Under the pieces are notes generated by a model, which had not been told where the DNA came from, made no database searches, and was given only the letters and a program-made list of their open reading frames with translations. A DNA stretch of 40,038 bases, taken from Candidatus Pacebacteria bacterium CG10_big_fil_rev_8_21_14_0_10_56_10 (GTDB lineage: Bacteria > Patescibacteriota > Microgenomatia > UBA1400 > PJMF01). Below are positions 85 to 20,887 of this stretch, one piece after another; the first letter of the stretch is position 1; each line of letters opens with the position of its first letter. Both the position numbers and the translations under genes were made by a program. The stretch spans positions 1 through 40,038 of the forward strand of contig PFDK01000026.1 of assembly GCA_002772645.1 (NCBI GenBank). Reading direction: 5' to 3'.

Positions 85-2745
85 ATGGATGAAAAACTAA
101 CTCAGGGAATACCACCGGAACAGATCCAAGACACCCGACAGGAAAAGTCAACCTTGTTGGGCAGTGTTATCCTTACAGAAAGAGAAACTGGCGCAAGATT
201 ATCGTGGAATGAGGATAAAACCGAACTGAGAGTAAATACGACATTATACCCAGATGAAGATAGTGCTCATTTTGCCGCACTGAGACAAGTAGCTCAGCAT
301 GTTGGTCTTGCTCAGGCTTTTCGCACAGATGCAAATGTATTACTAGACCTATCTAAAAAAGATCCTGGGGCCACGGGACCAATTTTGCGATGGCAGGGAC
401 TAGCTCGCCTTCGAGATGATGCTCAGAAAGTTCTTCAGGATCATCCAACTGCACCACAGAATCATACGCTGTCGCAGGAATTTAATTGGGCAATAGACTT
501 TTATGTTTTAACTGGAAAATATCCAGATCAATTATCCCTACAAGTTCAGGATGCCATCTCACGCATACCTAAAACTCAAGGACAAAGCCTTGTTGACTAT
601 ATCGCCTCTGGCCGCTATCTGAAATTTGATGGTCAAAATTTTGACAAACATTTGAGACCAATAATTGATGATTTAGCGCAAGTCGATAAACAAACTGGTC
701 GCTCTCAACAATTTGAATATCGTCCATCACAAACTCAAGATGTGGCAGGAAGCAAAGAGGCCATCCAGGAATCAGATATCACTGTCCGTGTTGATCCTTT
801 TTACGGCGGATATTATCGTGAGCAGATTTGCCGCTATGATCCTGTAGCAGGACAAATAGTAAAAGAAGCAGGTTTTAAAGAGACCTGGGATGTTGAGGAA
901 CCTCTCAGTGACGAAGCGGTTTGGCAAACACAAAGAAGTTATCAAGGGAAGATAATTCCAGGTAAAGAAACATTGGTAAAACTCCCCTATGGAGCATTAC
1001 CAATTGTCGAATCAATTAAGCCCGCTGGCGCGTTTCACTTAATGCGGGATGAATTGGGCATCATCTCACTGGAACCGAGAGTTGGTAGCGTTTCTTCAGA
1101 AGTGACAGAGTTTTCCTTCGATTTTGTGATGGGCGAAACTGACTCAAATAAACTAAACCATCCACCTACAGATCGCGACATTTCCCCTACTGGCGGAACT
1201 CTTGATTCGGAAACCCAAGCACTCATTGATGATCTATTGACTCAAAACTGGATGAGTGATGTACAAAAGGCACGAGAGGTTGTTCGATATATCCACAGTA
1301 GGCTTCGCTACCCTAATGATGAGTCTGAAATTGGCCAGATAGATTCAGTGTATTTGAGTGCAGGCAGTAATCTTTGGACAAAAATAACAGAGACAGGGAT
1401 AGCACATTGCTACTGGGCCAACATCCTTCGTGATGAGCTATGTAAACGCCTTGGTATTGCATCACGAATTCCAACAGGACCATATATTAACAGCAAAGAT
1501 CCTCGTTTCGACTTTACCGTGGTTGAAGCACCGGGCATTGACAGGCATGCGTGGGGAGAAGTTTGGGACACTAATGCTCAAAAATGGACTCATCGAGGGA
1601 TGGATGCTACCCCACCAAAACAAAAGGATGATTCTCAGGAGGACGAATCAGATCAAGGTGAGCCACTTGATGGAGACTTCGGAGATTCTCTTGTTGATCA
1701 GCCAGAGTTGAGCCAGGAAGAGGTTGAGGGCATGTATCAAGATTTGGTATCAAGTTCAGAACAAACCTCACAATCCGATCCTACCACGGAACAGCGTGCT
1801 GCAGAACAATTTGAACAGGAAAAAGGAGTACCTTACGCTGCTTGGAAAAAATTAGAACGCTGGATTTCCGATGTCAATAATACTGCGATTTCTCCAGAAA
1901 TGAGTATTCGTAAACAGCAGAGCACCCTTTATCAAGAGTGGCGTGATTTGTTTGACCTTCTATATAAAAGACGAGAGGTTCCATATCAGGCATATAAAGG
2001 TCCAGTAAGGCTAAGCGAGGGCGAATTTCTCGATGATCCAGTTACAGCCTACATTGATGTTCGCTCCCGGGATGATGATCCATCTGGCTACCAGCGCGCT
2101 CATCAAAAACAAAAAGAAATTCTAGAAGTATCTGAAGTTGATGATGATTTTGTATTAGATATTTCCGGATCTATGTCTGGGAGTGCTGAAGAAGAAATGA
2201 AAAAGATGGTTCTCAGCTCTAGCTATAACATCATGAAGCTCAACGAACGTTTCCAACATTCTAGCAGTAAGACGAAAATGAGAACGCCACTACAGGTTCG
2301 GTCTACGCAAATAACCTTTGGCAGTGGGGCGACTGAAGTAGTGAAAAAAGAAGATACCATGTCTGAAAAAATACTGATGGATCTTGATCGAGAATTACAA
2401 GCTAGAAATCAAGGTTCGGAAGGACTAGTTGTAGCTTTACAAAAATATCAACAATCTTTGGATGTCGACACTATCACGCAAATTAGACAAGGAAAAAGAA
2501 GTAAAATACTAACCGTTGTTTCTGATGGATATGTAACAAATCAAGCAGAATGTGTTGACTTGATCACTCAGTTAAGGTCACAAGGTATAGTCGTACAAGG
2601 AATAGGTTTTGGTAGTGCGGCTCAAGATATTAAAGTAGTTTGTCATGACTCAGCAGATCCAGAAGCTGCGGTGGTTATTGATGACGTAAGACAAGCAACA
2701 CTGACAAGACATAAATTATTAATGAAGCATTTATCTAAATTGTAA
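85..2745 (+). CDS. Transglutaminase-like and VWA-domain protein, partner of the downstream AAA+ ATPase
   Basis: This is an 886-residue protein with no obvious signal peptide. In the middle is a transglutaminase-like (papain-fold) domain with a visible Cys-His-Asp triad: C442 in AHCYWANIL, H488 in RHAWGEVWD and D507 in RGMDATPP. An acidic, Gln/Ser-rich linker follows at about 510-570. The C-terminal part is a von Willebrand A domain whose metal-binding motif DISGS lies at 692-696, and VVSDGYVT further on fits a later VWA strand. The gene for a MoxR-type AAA+ protein starts 17 bases downstream, so this is a VWA-MoxR pair. Such pairs are known as chaperone-like or conflict-system modules in which the ATPase remodels VWA-bound clients. 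The role of the transglutaminase-like domain (protease, amidase or crosslinker) cannot be told from sequence. The ATG start lies just after an IS end, and the base composition is AT-richer than in the genes after 5.5 kb. Confidence 0.85.
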   Translation: MDEKLTQGIPPEQIQDTRQEKSTLLGSVILTERETGARLSWNEDKTELRVNTTLYPDEDSAHFAALRQVAQHVGLAQAFRTDANVLLDLSKKDPGATGPILRWQGLARLRDDAQKVLQDHPTAPQNHTLSQEFNWAIDFYVLTGKYPDQLSLQVQDAISRIPKTQGQSLVDYIASGRYLKFDGQNFDKHLRPIIDDLAQVDKQTGRSQQFEYRPSQTQDVAGSKEAIQESDITVRVDPFYGGYYREQICRYDPVAGQIVKEAGFKETWDVEEPLSDEAVWQTQRSYQGKIIPGKETLVKLPYGALPIVESIKPAGAFHLMRDELGIISLEPRVGSVSSEVTEFSFDFVMGETDSNKLNHPPTDRDISPTGGTLDSETQALIDDLLTQNWMSDVQKAREVVRYIHSRLRYPNDESEIGQIDSVYLSAGSNLWTKITETGIAHCYWANILRDELCKRLGIASRIPTGPYINSKDPRFDFTVVEAPGIDRHAWGEVWDTNAQKWTHRGMDATPPKQKDDSQEDESDQGEPLDGDFGDSLVDQPELSQEEVEGMYQDLVSSSEQTSQSDPTTEQRAAEQFEQEKGVPYAAWKKLERWISDVNNTAISPEMSIRKQQSTLYQEWRDLFDLLYKRREVPYQAYKGPVRLSEGEFLDDPVTAYIDVRSRDDDPSGYQRAHQKQKEILEVSEVDDDFVLDISGSMSGSAEEEMKKMVLSSSYNIMKLNERFQHSSSKTKMRTPLQVRSTQITFGSGATEVVKKEDTMSEKILMDLDRELQARNQGSEGLVVALQKYQQSLDVDTITQIRQGKRSKILTVVSDGYVTNQAECVDLITQLRSQGIVVQGIGFGSAAQDIKVVCHDSADPEAAVVIDDVRQATLTRHKLLMKHLSKL

Positions 2746-2762: not shown

Positions 2763-5372
2763 ATGCCAGAATCGTCACCAGCTGAAATACTTTCAACTCA
2801 ACAAGTCCAACAAGCTCGTTTACGGCTGGCTCCACTTGCGCTTAATCTTTTTGTAGAAGGTGTGCCTATTCGTGAGGATTCTCAACCAATCTCTAAGGAG
2901 CAAGTTGAGGAGCAAATCTTTGCAGTTCTAGGATACATGGAAGAATACTTTCGTCCACCTTCTCAAACAGGTGATGAAATTACTATAAATGGCGAGATGA
3001 ATCTGCGAGAATTGGAAGCGCAACTTGATGCATCTTTATTATCTAGCAAAAGGAATGATAGTGTAAGGAAAGTCCTTACTGGCGTGACCCCAGATGAAGG
3101 TAGTGAAATGACAGAAGAAGCTCAAGAGCTCCGTCCCTACCATCAGGAAAAAATTAAGCAAAAAATTTCCGATCTCCTTTCCCATCCTCAGGTAAGAGAA
3201 AAATTTCAAGAAGAATTGAAACGAGAAATTGGTTTTTACCAGGCTGCCAGAAAACCCATGCGCGAAGTACGAGATATTAATAGAGTTACTGGTAAGTTAA
3301 GACAAACTATTTACAGGCGTTACCTAAAAAGTAAAAGAAAACATGGAAAACTTGTTCAGAGCGCTTCTGACCAAATCGCTTTTTTTCAAGATGAAGCTGA
3401 TGAATTAGAATCCACAGAGAGAGGTATTGAGCAAACGGCTTCAGCTGAAACTCTAGGCTATCTTGAAACACAGAAGCTTCTTGAATACAAAAAACAGCTT
3501 AATGAGCATGGTTTTGTTACAACTCCTTCAAGGGAACACTTAATAGATAGGATAACCCGTGAGGCTCTTGCAGGAAAGAAAATATTTCTCGTTGGCTCTA
3601 CTGGTACAGGAAAAACAGAACTTGCTTTCTATGCTTTAGATTCATTGACCGGTGGGTATGAGATTGTGCCATGGCATGAAGGTACCACACCAAGAGATAT
3701 TTTTGGTCACCGCGAACTTTATGAAGACGCTGAGGGAAAAGTGCGAAGTGGCGTAAAACCAGGACCATATCCTCGTGCGCTGGAAAAACAAGTCGGTCTC
3801 GTTCATGAAGAATTTACAGGTGGTTCTACCAGAACACAATTGAGTATGAAGTATCTCATGGGTGCAAGTCCTGGAGAAAAAGTTCATATTCCAGGATTTA
3901 ACGGAGAGGTCCATGAAATTACACCTAACTTTATAGAACTCTTTACTGGCAATCCCAAAGATGAACGCACCAAACAGCGTGAAGACATGGATCCAGCGAT
4001 TCTTCGAGAACTGACAGGTGTAGAGGTTAGTTACATGCCGGCTTCAGAAATGAATGATATTATTCGTGCTAAGTTGATTGAAGAGAATGGCGTTTTAAGG
4101 CTGGCTCCATCAGAGCTTAAATATATAGAGAACTTGTGTCAAGCAGCTGGAATAATGCAAAAATTCCATAACCGAGATTTTGAAGGATTTACTCCAGAAA
4201 TAAAAGACTTATTTGCCATAGATCCTCGTGGAAATACCGAGAACACGCTCAATAATAACTTTTTTGATCCGGGAACACTATTTAAACTCTTTAGTGAATG
4301 GGAGCTGGCAAGAGCTCGTGGGCAACACTTTGCTGATTATATGCAAACAAAGTTGGGGGAGTTTGTCAGTGACCCAAAGACACTTAGTACACCCGAGGAG
4401 CGAAGAATTCTCCAAAAGGTATTGTATGCTTTTAAACTCACCACTAGTGCTTCAGGTGATATTCAGGTGACTATCGGGAAATCAGAGGATGAAAAAGGGT
4501 ATATCCTACCCTCTGAAATGGCTGGACATGTTGCACTGAGTAATGAAAATCCAATGGGCGCATCATCGCCGGAGGCCAGACGAGTCGCAACTTCAGAGTT
4601 TCAACGCAAAGAAGAACAATTCTGGAGAAATAAGTTGAGACCTGCTCCAGGATCTGTATTTGAGATTCCAGAACTACCAAGATCTGTCCCTCCAGAGTCA
4701 CTTGAGAAATTTGCTGGAGATGCTGAGAATATTGGAGTAAGGAGTTTTCCCAAATTGGACATTGGCACTCCAGATGATCTGAGAAGAATGGATGTTGACG
4801 ACTTCTTGGCTAGAATAGAAGAAAGATATCCAGGTCTGCGAGTATACGAAACTTTATCTGATGCGGAAAAGAATGACCACACTGTTGGGAGACTTCTCAG
4901 AAAATGGTATTGGGAACAAGTTAAGGATGGGAAAATTGATTTTCCTGAAATATATAATAAGGGAGGCTGGTTTGTTACGGAAGTCATGTCAAAGCCAATG
5001 TACAGGGACTCCTATGAGGAAACCATGATAAGTGGCGAACTTGGTCATACTAACAGATTTAATGTTACCTGGGATACTGCTCATGGAGATATTGTAAGAA
5101 ATAAGTCAGAGATACTATCCAAGTTAGGTCTCCCTTCAAATCTAGAAGTTCGCATGCCTACTGCAGCTGAACTGAACATGCTTCTAAACCGTATGGAAGT
5201 AGGAACGGACACGTATGAGTGGACTGAGGATGAATATCGTGGTGACGGCGCTTCTAACCGTGTCGTCGTTGGCGGCTCCGCCCTTGGTGGTGCCGCCCGC
5301 GCCGGTTGGCTTTATCCGGTGGACTCGCGTAACGGCCTTGGTTTCCGTGTCGCTGTAGTTCTTGGAACTTGA
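2763..5372 (+). CDS. MoxR-like AAA+ ATPase with a C-terminal lectin/FGE-like domain that looks like a DGR target
   Basis: The protein has 869 residues. An alpha-helical N-terminal region (about 1-260) precedes an AAA+ domain. Walker A is GSTGTGKT at 278-285. The Walker B position reads LVHEE at 346-350, with His where Asp is usual. A sensor-1-like stretch is FTGNPKDE, and an arginine-finger candidate is in DPAILREL. The final ~200 residues (YPGLRVYETL, GGWFVTEV, then RMPTAAELN, YEWTEDEY, RVVVGGSA, GFRVAVVLG) resemble the end of a formylglycine-generating-enzyme/C-type-lectin fold, which is the usual scaffold of DGR variable proteins. The last 44 codons have very little adenine (see the separate entry). 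The gene lies 17 bases after its VWA partner, so the pair probably works as an ATP-driven machine with a diversifiable binding tip. The ATPase assignment is firm. The DGR assignment is an inference from composition and fold, because no RT or template repeat lies in the window. Confidence 0.85.
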   Translation: MPESSPAEILSTQQVQQARLRLAPLALNLFVEGVPIREDSQPISKEQVEEQIFAVLGYMEEYFRPPSQTGDEITINGEMNLRELEAQLDASLLSSKRNDSVRKVLTGVTPDEGSEMTEEAQELRPYHQEKIKQKISDLLSHPQVREKFQEELKREIGFYQAARKPMREVRDINRVTGKLRQTIYRRYLKSKRKHGKLVQSASDQIAFFQDEADELESTERGIEQTASAETLGYLETQKLLEYKKQLNEHGFVTTPSREHLIDRITREALAGKKIFLVGSTGTGKTELAFYALDSLTGGYEIVPWHEGTTPRDIFGHRELYEDAEGKVRSGVKPGPYPRALEKQVGLVHEEFTGGSTRTQLSMKYLMGASPGEKVHIPGFNGEVHEITPNFIELFTGNPKDERTKQREDMDPAILRELTGVEVSYMPASEMNDIIRAKLIEENGVLRLAPSELKYIENLCQAAGIMQKFHNRDFEGFTPEIKDLFAIDPRGNTENTLNNNFFDPGTLFKLFSEWELARARGQHFADYMQTKLGEFVSDPKTLSTPEERRILQKVLYAFKLTTSASGDIQVTIGKSEDEKGYILPSEMAGHVALSNENPMGASSPEARRVATSEFQRKEEQFWRNKLRPAPGSVFEIPELPRSVPPESLEKFAGDAENIGVRSFPKLDIGTPDDLRRMDVDDFLARIEERYPGLRVYETLSDAEKNDHTVGRLLRKWYWEQVKDGKIDFPEIYNKGGWFVTEVMSKPMYRDSYEETMISGELGHTNRFNVTWDTAHGDIVRNKSEILSKLGLPSNLEVRMPTAAELNMLLNRMEVGTDTYEWTEDEYRGDGASNRVVVGGSALGGAARAGWLYPVDSRNGLGFRVAVVLGT
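5238..5369 (+). other. Putative DGR variable region (adenine-depleted NNY stretch)
   Basis: In these 44 codons I count only 10 adenines in 132 bases, whereas the rest of the gene is clearly A-rich. Thirty-eight codons end in C or T. The residues encoded at the NNY codons are mostly Gly, Ala, Ser, Arg, Leu and Val. This is what adenine-specific mutagenesis of a template rich in AAY codons leaves behind, and it lies at the 3' end of a lectin/FGE-like domain, where DGR variable regions sit. The conserved flank GFRVAVVLG matches the usual end of such domains. A template repeat should match this region except at template adenines, and none was found here. Confidence 0.6.
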
Positions 5373-5553
5373 TCTCTTGAATTCTTGGTTCTTTTGGTTT
5401 TTTGATTCTTGGTCCCTTGACACGCGAAACGGGTAGATTTTATCGAATTTTTTTATGACTTCACAATACGTAGACTATAAATAGCATGGGTCTCATAGTT
5501 ATTTGTTTTATTTTCGATGTCACCTACCAAACATCTGCCCAACTCACCTAGCG
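5373..5553 (+). other. Gap after the AAA+ gene, with a spaced TTCTTGG repeat
   Basis: There is no gene in this 181-base stretch. TTCTTGG occurs at 5359-5365, 5382-5388 and 5406-5412, about 23-24 bases apart, within a pyrimidine-rich stretch that starts at the end of the variable region. In DGRs a recognition element (IMH) and often a hairpin lie here, but I see no strong hairpin. The rest is AT-rich, and the GC-richer backbone begins at about 5540. Confidence 0.35.
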
Positions 5554-19468: not shown

Positions 19469-20276
19469 AGTTTTCTGAGACAGAATTAGCATAAGCGACT
19501 GGGATCATTTTTAATGATCGGTGTAAACGGTCGAAGTTGTAATAGTGGACTTGCTCATAAATGGCAGTCACAAATTCACCAATAGTCTCGAAGCGATCAG
19601 TCCATCCCAATTCATCTTTGAAGTGAGAGTAAAAGGATTCCTTATAACCATTTTGTCAAGGGCTACCTTTATCTGAAACCGAGACTTGGACCAGATGCTC
19701 TTCCCAAAACTGAGTACTTAAGGCAGCCATAAATTCAGTGCCTTGGTCAGAGTGAAAAATATCAGGGGTACAACCAGCTTCAAGTACGGCTTGTTTGACA
19801 ACTGCATGGATGAGAAAGCGGTCATGGTGGAGGCTGACTTGGGCTCCTAAGACCTGCCTGGTAAACAAGTCTTCAATGGTGGCTAAGTACCACCACCGAC
19901 CTTGAAACCAGATAAAGGTGACATCACCTACCCAGATGTGATGAGGCTTGACCACCACTATCCTAAGCAATGAGGTTAGTGTAATGATGGTGGGAGGTAG
20001 AGTGGGTGCAAAAACGCCTAACTCTCCGGCGGGGTGGTTTTAGGCCATACTTTTTCATCACCCTGGCAGTCCGTTTGTGGTTAATTTTAAGCTCCCAACC
20101 CAACTTAATTGAACCATAGGAGGGGTGCTTCACCCAGGTAGTTTCAATGTTCTGTTTCAAAGCTAAATCTTTAGTTTCCTGTTTCCCGGTGCGGTGTAAA
20201 TGATCGGGACTGATAGCCATGGCCCGGGTTAGGATGGTTTTACAGGTTGAGTCCTGGATTAATTCACTCTTTTTTT
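19449..20276 (-). pseudogene. IS3-family transposase orfB, broken by a frameshift and a nonsense codon
   Basis: Reading through the defects gives a normal rve-type integrase of about 270 residues. The first part (HPSYGSIKLGWEL, KKYGLKPPRRR, HHYTNLIA) stops at 19963. The frame then shifts near 19965 to VVVKPHHIWVGDVTFIWFQG and YLATIEDLFTRQVLG. A TGA at 19656-19658 interrupts GSP-stop-QNGYKESFY, where relatives usually have Trp (TGG). The catalytic acidic residues are visible as D in VGDVTF, D in FHSDQGTEF and E in GYKESFY, the last lying beyond the stop. Two lesions make it inactive. The last codons run past the terminal repeat to a stop near 19449. Confidence 0.8.
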
Positions 20277-20571
20277 CCTCAACTCATGTCGAGAGTGAGT
20301 TTGCCAATGATTCGTTTTAATTCCGTATTCTCCCGTTGCAGCTTGTTGTATTTGAGGATAGTGATGGTGTCAGAGCCGCTGTCTCGAGCGATCCAGTTGT
20401 AGATAGTTTTAGTGCTAATCCCAAAGGTTTCAGCTAAGTCAGCTACTTTTTGGCCACTTTTGGCCTTAGCCATAACTTCATCCCGGATCTCTTTAGGAAT
20501 CAATCTCCGTTGCATGATACCCACTTCAAGATTAATGAGGCGATATTATGTCAGGCTTGCCTCAGAAAACA
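19469..20571 (-). mobile_element. Degenerate IS3-family insertion sequence
   Basis: The element is about 1.1 kb. Both ends read inward as GTTTTCTGAGrCA: plus strand from 19470 (GTTTTCTGAGACA), minus strand from 20570 (GTTTTCTGAGGCA). The minus-strand end shows the family-typical TG as outermost bases, while the other end has AG, probably by mutation. No clear target duplication is visible. Inside are orfA and a broken orfB on the minus strand. The right side is inserted in, or lies next to, a fragment of another transposase, so elements are nested here. Confidence 0.75.
20279..20524 (-). CDS. IS3-family transposase orfA
   Basis: The 81-residue protein has a helix-turn-helix (VADLAETFGISTKTIYNWIAR) followed by a leucine-zipper-like helix (LKYNKLQRENTELKRIIGKL), the standard IS3 orfA layout. 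ATG is available at 20524 and at 20515 (MQRRLIP). It ends just before orfB. An A7 run lies right after the stop, a position that would not support productive frameshifting to an OrfAB fusion. It is probably a relic, because orfB is broken. Confidence 0.8.
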   Translation of the reverse strand: MGIMQRRLIPKEIRDEVMAKAKSGQKVADLAETFGISTKTIYNWIARDSGSDTITILKYNKLQRENTELKRIIGKLTLDMS

Positions 20572-20806
20572 TCCGCAGTATACGGGGTACCTGCCAGTTC
20601 CCAGTCTCTTTTTGTATATCAAGCACCCGCAGATTCCCAACACCACCGACTTCGTTGAAGGTGCTGTTAATGCCACCTTGCAAGAAAAGCTCAGGTTCCA
20701 CCGTGGATTAAAGCTGCCCAAAAGGAGAATTTTAGTCGCTCACTATTTGCGCTCTAAACAATGAGTAATTTGAGTCAAAAAACCAACGCAAAACTTTACT
20801 TAACCC
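20572..20806 (+). pseudogene. C-terminal fragment of a second transposase, with its IS right end
   Basis: The readable part is YTGYLPVPSLFLYIKHPQ, then IPNTTDFVEGAVNATLQEKL and FHRGLKLPKRRILVAHYL, ending at a TGA at 20762-20764. The pattern PNTT-x2-EG-x-N-x4-L-x3-HRGL is typical of the end of MULE/IS256-like DDE transposases (for example IS1249-type), where the Glu is catalytic. The family call is tentative. The N-terminal part is missing and the IS3 element abuts the fragment on the left. The end of this gene plus the next ~42 bases match positions 1-80, so two copies of this IS type exist or existed. Confidence 0.65.
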
Positions 20807-20887
20807 GAATATCTAAGGTTAGAACTCACCAAAAAGAGCGATAAACAGGCGTATTCACCAGATCTCTTGGCTCTGCGTACACGTTGG

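Follow-up and report, generated by a model that had tools for sequence, protein, structure and literature searches.

An AAA+ ATPase gene of a Candidatus Pacebacteria genome ends in the variable repeat of a diversity-generating retroelement and has phage-borne relatives

Fusions of a lectin domain to an AAA+ protein are the commonest target of diversity-generating retroelements (DGRs) in CPR bacteria, according to Paul et al. 2017 as summarised in Dore et al. 2024 (PMC10907252). Nearly all members of CPR clade 2 of the reverse transcriptases (RTs) were described as cellular (Roux et al. 2021, PMC8144416). A MoxR-like ATPase, a VWA protein and a DGR-variable domain are found in one operon in the VMAP/MoxR-vWA ternary conflict systems with a DGR (PMC7159879) and in the Thiohalocapsa DGRs (PMC10907252). 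The variable domain of the VMAP/MoxR-vWA systems usually lies on the vWA protein or on a separate target. The DGR of Bordetella phage BPP-1 diversifies a tail fibre.

We analyzed a 40,038-nt stretch of DNA (the window) from a Candidatus Pacebacteria genome, in which an AAA+ ATPase gene ends in an adenine-poor sequence. This locus and its relatives share with the CPR AAA+-lectin DGRs the taxon group, an AAA+ protein with a C-terminal variable domain, an AAY-type template repeat (TR), Avd, and a DGR-type RT. However, the source genome assembly lacks TR, Avd, and RT, its variable repeat (VR) is most likely frozen, and its AAA+ gene shares an operon with that of a VWA-transglutaminase protein. As DGR targets, AAA+-lectin proteins were known from CPR bacteria before, and the source locus adds a member in a degenerate state. 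The RTs of its relatives would belong to CPR clade 2, whereas the nearest TR found here lies on a phage. As in the ternary systems and in Thiohalocapsa, a MoxR-like ATPase, a VWA protein, and a DGR-variable domain share one operon, but here the variable domain is fused to the ATPase and no VMAP was recognized. With BPP-1 the locus has in common the TR/VR/RT/Avd logic, a hairpin 3' of the VR, and phage-borne relatives, although these relatives diversify the AAA+ protein of a HEPN-VWA operon between portal and capsid genes. Two features look new, namely the phage-borne cassette in a HEPN RNase-VWA-AAA+ operon and the VWA-transglutaminase partner in the source genome. A literature search for the phage-borne form found no description of it in a limited paper collection, which is weak evidence.

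Target gene and adenine-restricted variation of its 3' end

The features of the operon and of the repeat are as follows.

85..2745, + strand: operon partner, an 886-aa transglutaminase-like cysteine peptidase with a C-terminal VWA domain (Pfam)
2763..5372, + strand: AAA+ (MoxR-like) ATPase, the DGR target protein, 869 aa (AAA_5, 36.4 bits; cut-off, 22)
4501..5369, + strand: C-terminal module, approximately residues 580–869, a presumed C-type-lectin/FGE-like ligand-binding domain (blastp against the phage target, 45%)
5238..5363, + strand: VR (against the TR of phage contig L087, 21 of 28 template adenines and 5 of 98 other bases replaced)
5336..5360, + strand: constant 3' end of the repeat, an IMH-like anchor common to the TRs of relatives (VR/TR alignment)

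The AAA+ gene is a single ORF. Its AAA_5 domain covers residues 274–415 (Pfam, above the cut-off), and a Walker A motif, GSTGTGKT, at residue 278 identifies a MoxR-like AAA+ core; the specific bpMoxR model scored 13.4 against a cut-off of 27, below threshold. The upstream partner matched Transglut_core (25.4 bits; cut-off, 23) and VWA (29 bits; cut-off, 23.8). The Cys, His, and Asp residues of its transglutaminase-like domain are readable, as is the MIDAS motif DISGS in its VWA domain. The two genes thus form an operon of a MoxR-like ATPase and a VWA protein, as found in MoxR-vWA ternary systems. No third component, neither VMAP nor another effector-bearing protein, was recognized beside the pair; the transglutaminase-like domain is part of the VWA protein itself.

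The original prediction was that the 3' end of the AAA+ gene is depleted in adenine, biased toward NNY codons, and written by a DGR. The composition was as described. Positions 5238–5369 hold 10 A in 132 bases, the minimum over all 132-nt windows of the gene, which as a whole is 31.6% A. The third position was C or T in 38 of 44 codons, compared with a gene average of 50% and a maximum of 27 of 44 elsewhere. The motifs cited in support were all present in the AAA+ protein, with RMPTAAELN upstream of the A-poor stretch. The block comparable with a template spans 5238–5363, and the last residue changed relative to the template is 858.

Two orthologues were informative. The AAA+ protein of G051 (DNEP01000013.1, Candidatus Paceibacterota isolate UBA12128, another family of the order) is 87% identical, and that of G019 (JAHIVK010000010.1, Patescibacteria group bacterium, same family as the source genome) is 73% identical. 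Both genomes keep the same two-gene operon, with the VWA-transglutaminase orthologue adjoining the AAA+ gene on its upstream side. In both, a TR lies ~450 nt past the AAA+ stop codon, and its variable codons are AAC, AAT, GAC, or GAT. The TR of G019 is followed by a convergent Avd gene, an RT gene, and an HTH gene. Avd is an accessory protein of most but not all DGRs. The Avd ORF of G019 matched NCBIfam NF033474 (DivGenRetAVD) with 97.4 bits (cut-off, 80) and also Pfam bAvd; Avd homologues are present in G274, L087, and L088 as well. The RT matched RVT_1 above the cut-off, and the hallmark IGNLTSQ, defined for DGR RTs (PMC3521204), occurs with Y-A/V-DD in relatives and phages. The G019 RT has one in-frame stop at codon 242, and the rest is alignable throughout. 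A more distant genome, G274, carries the full intact series of AAA+ target, TR, Avd, RT, and HTH. At the G051 locus, the Avd gene is truncated and unrelated genes take the place of the RT. The best PDB match of the RT was 8ub7 ("Reverse transcriptase," 2.7e-41), the BPP-1 DGR RT complex. All three predicted elements, namely the near-copy differing at adenines, the DGR-type RT, and Avd, therefore exist, both on phage contigs and in relatives, where they directly follow the 3' end of the orthologue.

Some further observations concern these relatives. The in-frame stop of the G019 RT is a single TAA at L014 ~3832, which may mark a recent pseudogene or a sequencing error. G051 holds a second DGR-like RT of a different type, in two pieces at the ends of contigs C5 and C1 (L060 and L061), with an Avd-like ORF beside it; this RT could act in trans on the orphan G051 TR. 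The leader between target and TR, ~400 nt of non-coding DNA, is conserved in three genomes (84% and 73% identical DNA) at L014 4960–5420 (− strand) and the equivalent places in L013 and L055. It is possibly a structured part of the TR RNA, and an Rfam search with it found no known RNA. The VR of the G419 target (L083 6395–6514), which lies close to the contig end, has a frameshift near its 3' end. Two tandem lectin-module proteins in G272 (L057 5475–6947) are 89% alike over 147 nt with no TR or RT close by; they were excluded from the DGR evidence, their differences being mostly at non-A bases. The homologues in G095 and G292 were also excluded, as no TR was found in the region examined.

The VR and TR of each complete pair were compared. 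Differences fell at 21 of 27 adenines and 5 of 99 other bases in G051, and at 22 of 27 and 3 of 99 in G019. The corresponding counts were 19 of 30 and 1 of 96 in G274, 13 of 28 and 3 of 98 in L087, and 18 of 27 and 2 of 99 in L088. The source-genome VR was closest to the L087 TR, and the restriction of its differences to adenines was significant (Fisher P = 1.3e-13); against the G019 TR, 20 of 27 adenines and 9 of 99 other bases differed (P = 6e-11). Two of the five non-A differences from the L087 TR lie at the 3' boundary, where all VRs with this flank differ from the TR. Furthermore, the L087 TR accounts for four bases of the source VR that the G019 TR leaves unexplained (in TCT, ACG to GTG, CTT, and GGT). 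All 20 changed adenines before the 3' boundary occupy codon positions 1 and 2.

Purifying selection on the constant part of the AAA+ gene is strong, with dN 0.06 and dS 0.52 against G051 (dN/dS ~0.11) and dN 0.17 and a saturated dS of 2.3 against G019 (dN/dS ~0.07). The last 44 codons, which contain the VR, gave dN/dS values of 3.5 or more (dN 0.34/dS 0.10 and 0.30/0.03; ranges, 0.25–0.34 for dN and 0.03–0.10 for dS). Ordinary conservation of the stretch was therefore not seen in orthologues. A low dS beside a high flanking dS is the pattern expected when a VR is repeatedly overwritten from a conserved template. These results, together with the TR, Avd, and RT of relatives, indicate that the A-poor 3' end is the VR of a DGR.

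The VR lies at the C-terminus of the target, the position usual in DGR targets. The predicted lectin/FGE-like fold was confirmed neither by profiles nor by the low-confidence models. Pfam and PDB profile searches returned nothing relevant to a lectin/FGE fold. AF2 models of the C-terminal 230 residues from 3 and 5 sequences had pLDDT values of 34 and 53, the latter with 25–47 over the VR, and Foldseek comparison of these models with the PDB gave no match below an E value of 2. The C-type-lectin fold of the module is thus presumed.

Phage-borne cassettes and the possible role of the variable module

A scan of IMG/VR with the C-terminal module identified two contigs, L087 (311–8424, IMGVR_UViG_3300037483_001825) and L088 (291–8434, 3300013122_000499), both with an intact DGR. 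A viral-contig scan with the whole target returned nothing, and collections of phage and plasmid records gave no match. The same two contigs also yielded the RTs nearest to that of G019 among those lacking internal stops, with 84% and 75% identity over the query. The viral cassettes encode, in order, a TPR-HEPN_LA2681 protein, a CobT-type VWA protein, a small ORF, the AAA+ target, the TR, Avd, and the RT; the HEPN protein of L087 has the motif RNVLTH. The 62-kb contig is a phage genome, with genes for a terminase large subunit (1e-91), a portal protein, an SU10-type major capsid protein, an endolysin, and a tail fibre, and the cassette lies between the portal and capsid genes. The same HEPN-VWA-AAA+ order was found in the genome G419, again with a HEPN_LA2681 protein. 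As judged from the similarity of RT and TR, the hosts of these phages are probably Patescibacteria.

The source and phage AAA+ proteins are alike at 45% over residues 580–869, and the AAA part alone reached an E value of only ~0.6–0.8 (blastp). The VWA proteins of the two show no close relation. The C-terminal module alone is common to both, so that the variable module and its DGR have been joined to different ATPase-VWA pairs. Modularity of DGR targets has already been described (PMC8144416), and module swapping here is in line with it. The whole 3' module was probably acquired horizontally, the nearest known source being the phage-borne cassette, and transfer would then have run from such a cassette. 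Consistent with a horizontal origin, the 87% orthologue is in another family and the 73% orthologue is in the same family, the GC content of the operon contrasts with its surroundings, and phage copies exist.

We tentatively suggest that phages, probably those infecting Patescibacteria, use a DGR to diversify the AAA+ sensor of a HEPN RNase-VWA-AAA+ operon rather than a tail fibre. In that case the cassette could serve conflict or superinfection immunity through hypermutation and be spread by phages, and bacteria could keep frozen receptors after loss of the mutator. A role in attachment to, or recognition of, the host of the CPR cell, with the DGR origin unchanged, has been suggested for part of the CPR/DPANN DGRs (PMC10907252). 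This role is the less likely one here, as the partners are a VWA-peptidase in the source genome and a HEPN RNase with a VWA protein in the phages and G419.

Probable loss of the retroelement from the source genome

Two features mark the 3' flank of the VR.

5419..5435, + strand: decayed 3' hairpin (three of seven pairs broken in the window)
5487..5488: breakpoint, the end of homology with the 3' flank of the DGR (blastn against L087)

The TR and RT predicted for the source genome were not found. Its assembly comprises 949,651 bases in 29 contigs and is 93.8% complete, and searches of all contigs with several kinds of query detected no second copy of the stretch or TR, no TR leader, no RVT_1 match, and no relative of the DGR RT. 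An RT with the (I/V/L)GxxxSQ motif is thus present in relatives and phages but not in this assembly. Within the window, a repeat scan found no TR, and no avd was found. The 3' flank matches L087 over 173 nt at 88% and ends at 5487, 115 nt after the stop codon; past this point come unrelated chromosomal genes, with no leader, TR, Avd, or RT. The hairpin of relatives and phages (GACCCGC-GAA/GTA-GCGGGTC) has all seven pairs in G019, L087, and L088, and six plus one wobble in G051, but only four in the window. Some DGRs use a hairpin in this position for target recognition (PMC3521204), although this one might alternatively be a terminator. The window therefore holds the remnant of a DGR target, not a complete DGR. 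Because TR and RT are missing, the hairpin is broken, and homology ends at 5487, the source VR is most likely a stranded, frozen target rather than an active one.

Ongoing diversification in the source genome was not supported. The DGR would still be active on the AAA+ gene if TR and RT lay in the unassembled part of the genome, or if they were supplied by a resident phage or a second DGR. A gap in the 29 contigs could hold them, and apart from the 3' boundary, the VR has only three non-A differences from the phage TR. The case of G051, which keeps a TR without a locus RT and has the split RT elsewhere, makes action in trans conceivable, and TRs elsewhere in the genome were reported for other DGR systems (PMC7159879). 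Nevertheless, we consider continued activity improbable, because several kinds of query found no TR, leader, or RT, homology stops 115 nt past the stop codon, and among the close relatives compared, only the source genome has a broken hairpin.

The loss of TR, Avd, and RT is qualified mainly by the possibility of an assembly error at 5487; it would be false if contig C17 were misjoined there. The operon lies at the contig end, its GC content of ~41% stands next to a backbone of 50–60% and jumps to ~59% after the operon, and the first 86 bases recur at 20727–20812, so that the contig starts at a repeat. However, after a misjoin TR and RT should be found on a different contig, which is not the case; C17 has other AT-rich islands as well, and the decay of the hairpin is independent of the junction. 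We therefore regard a misjoin as very unlikely. The two copies of the repeat, the first of which precedes the VWA gene, are 82–89% identical, and the second lies near a seemingly broken transposase region (19656–20524, IS3-type by eye). Finally, a GC-rich codon-usage patch or a recombined segment without a DGR, suggested by the A-poverty of the stretch relative to the rest of the gene, was refuted by the TR comparison and has practically no probability, given the adenine-specific pattern in five TR/VR pairs, the Avd and DGR-type RT, and a dN/dS that reaches 3.5 or more in this stretch only.

Proposed mechanism and biological meaning

A frozen, DGR-written VR in a horizontally acquired module whose machinery was lost is, taken as a whole, very probably the correct explanation of the locus. 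In the ancestral locus, a TR a few hundred bases downstream would have been transcribed, and its RNA copied by an error-prone, Avd-assisted RT that misincorporates opposite template adenines. The mutated copy would then have overwritten the end of the AAA+ gene, with the constant 3' segment and probably the downstream hairpin as anchors, thereby randomizing ~15 residues (827–858) at the protein tip. Later, deletion or rearrangement at 5487 would have removed template, avd, and RT and frozen one version of the VR. Since overwriting keeps the VR synonymously alike, the few sites available suggest that the template was lost recently relative to the split from G051.

The ligand of the variable tip may be a foreign molecule or a partner, and its binding would be signaled by the MoxR-like ATPase to the neighboring VWA-transglutaminase protein. 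The effector would be the transglutaminase-like peptidase in the source genome or the HEPN RNase in the phages and G419. By analogy with Kaur et al. (PMC7159879) and Dore et al. (PMC10907252), the operon may work as a conflict module with sensor, transducer, and effector, comparable to the MoxR/VWA systems linked to DGRs in multicellular bacteria.

The source locus offers a frozen snapshot of one DGR-made receptor whose template is readable in relatives, which allows the effects of mutagenesis to be told apart from selection acting on a fixed variant. Judging from the phage cassettes, DGR-diversified AAA+ sensors may travel between ultra-small bacteria with phages. If this is true, targeted hypermutation, MoxR/VWA conflict systems, and HEPN RNases would be linked in one mobile unit.
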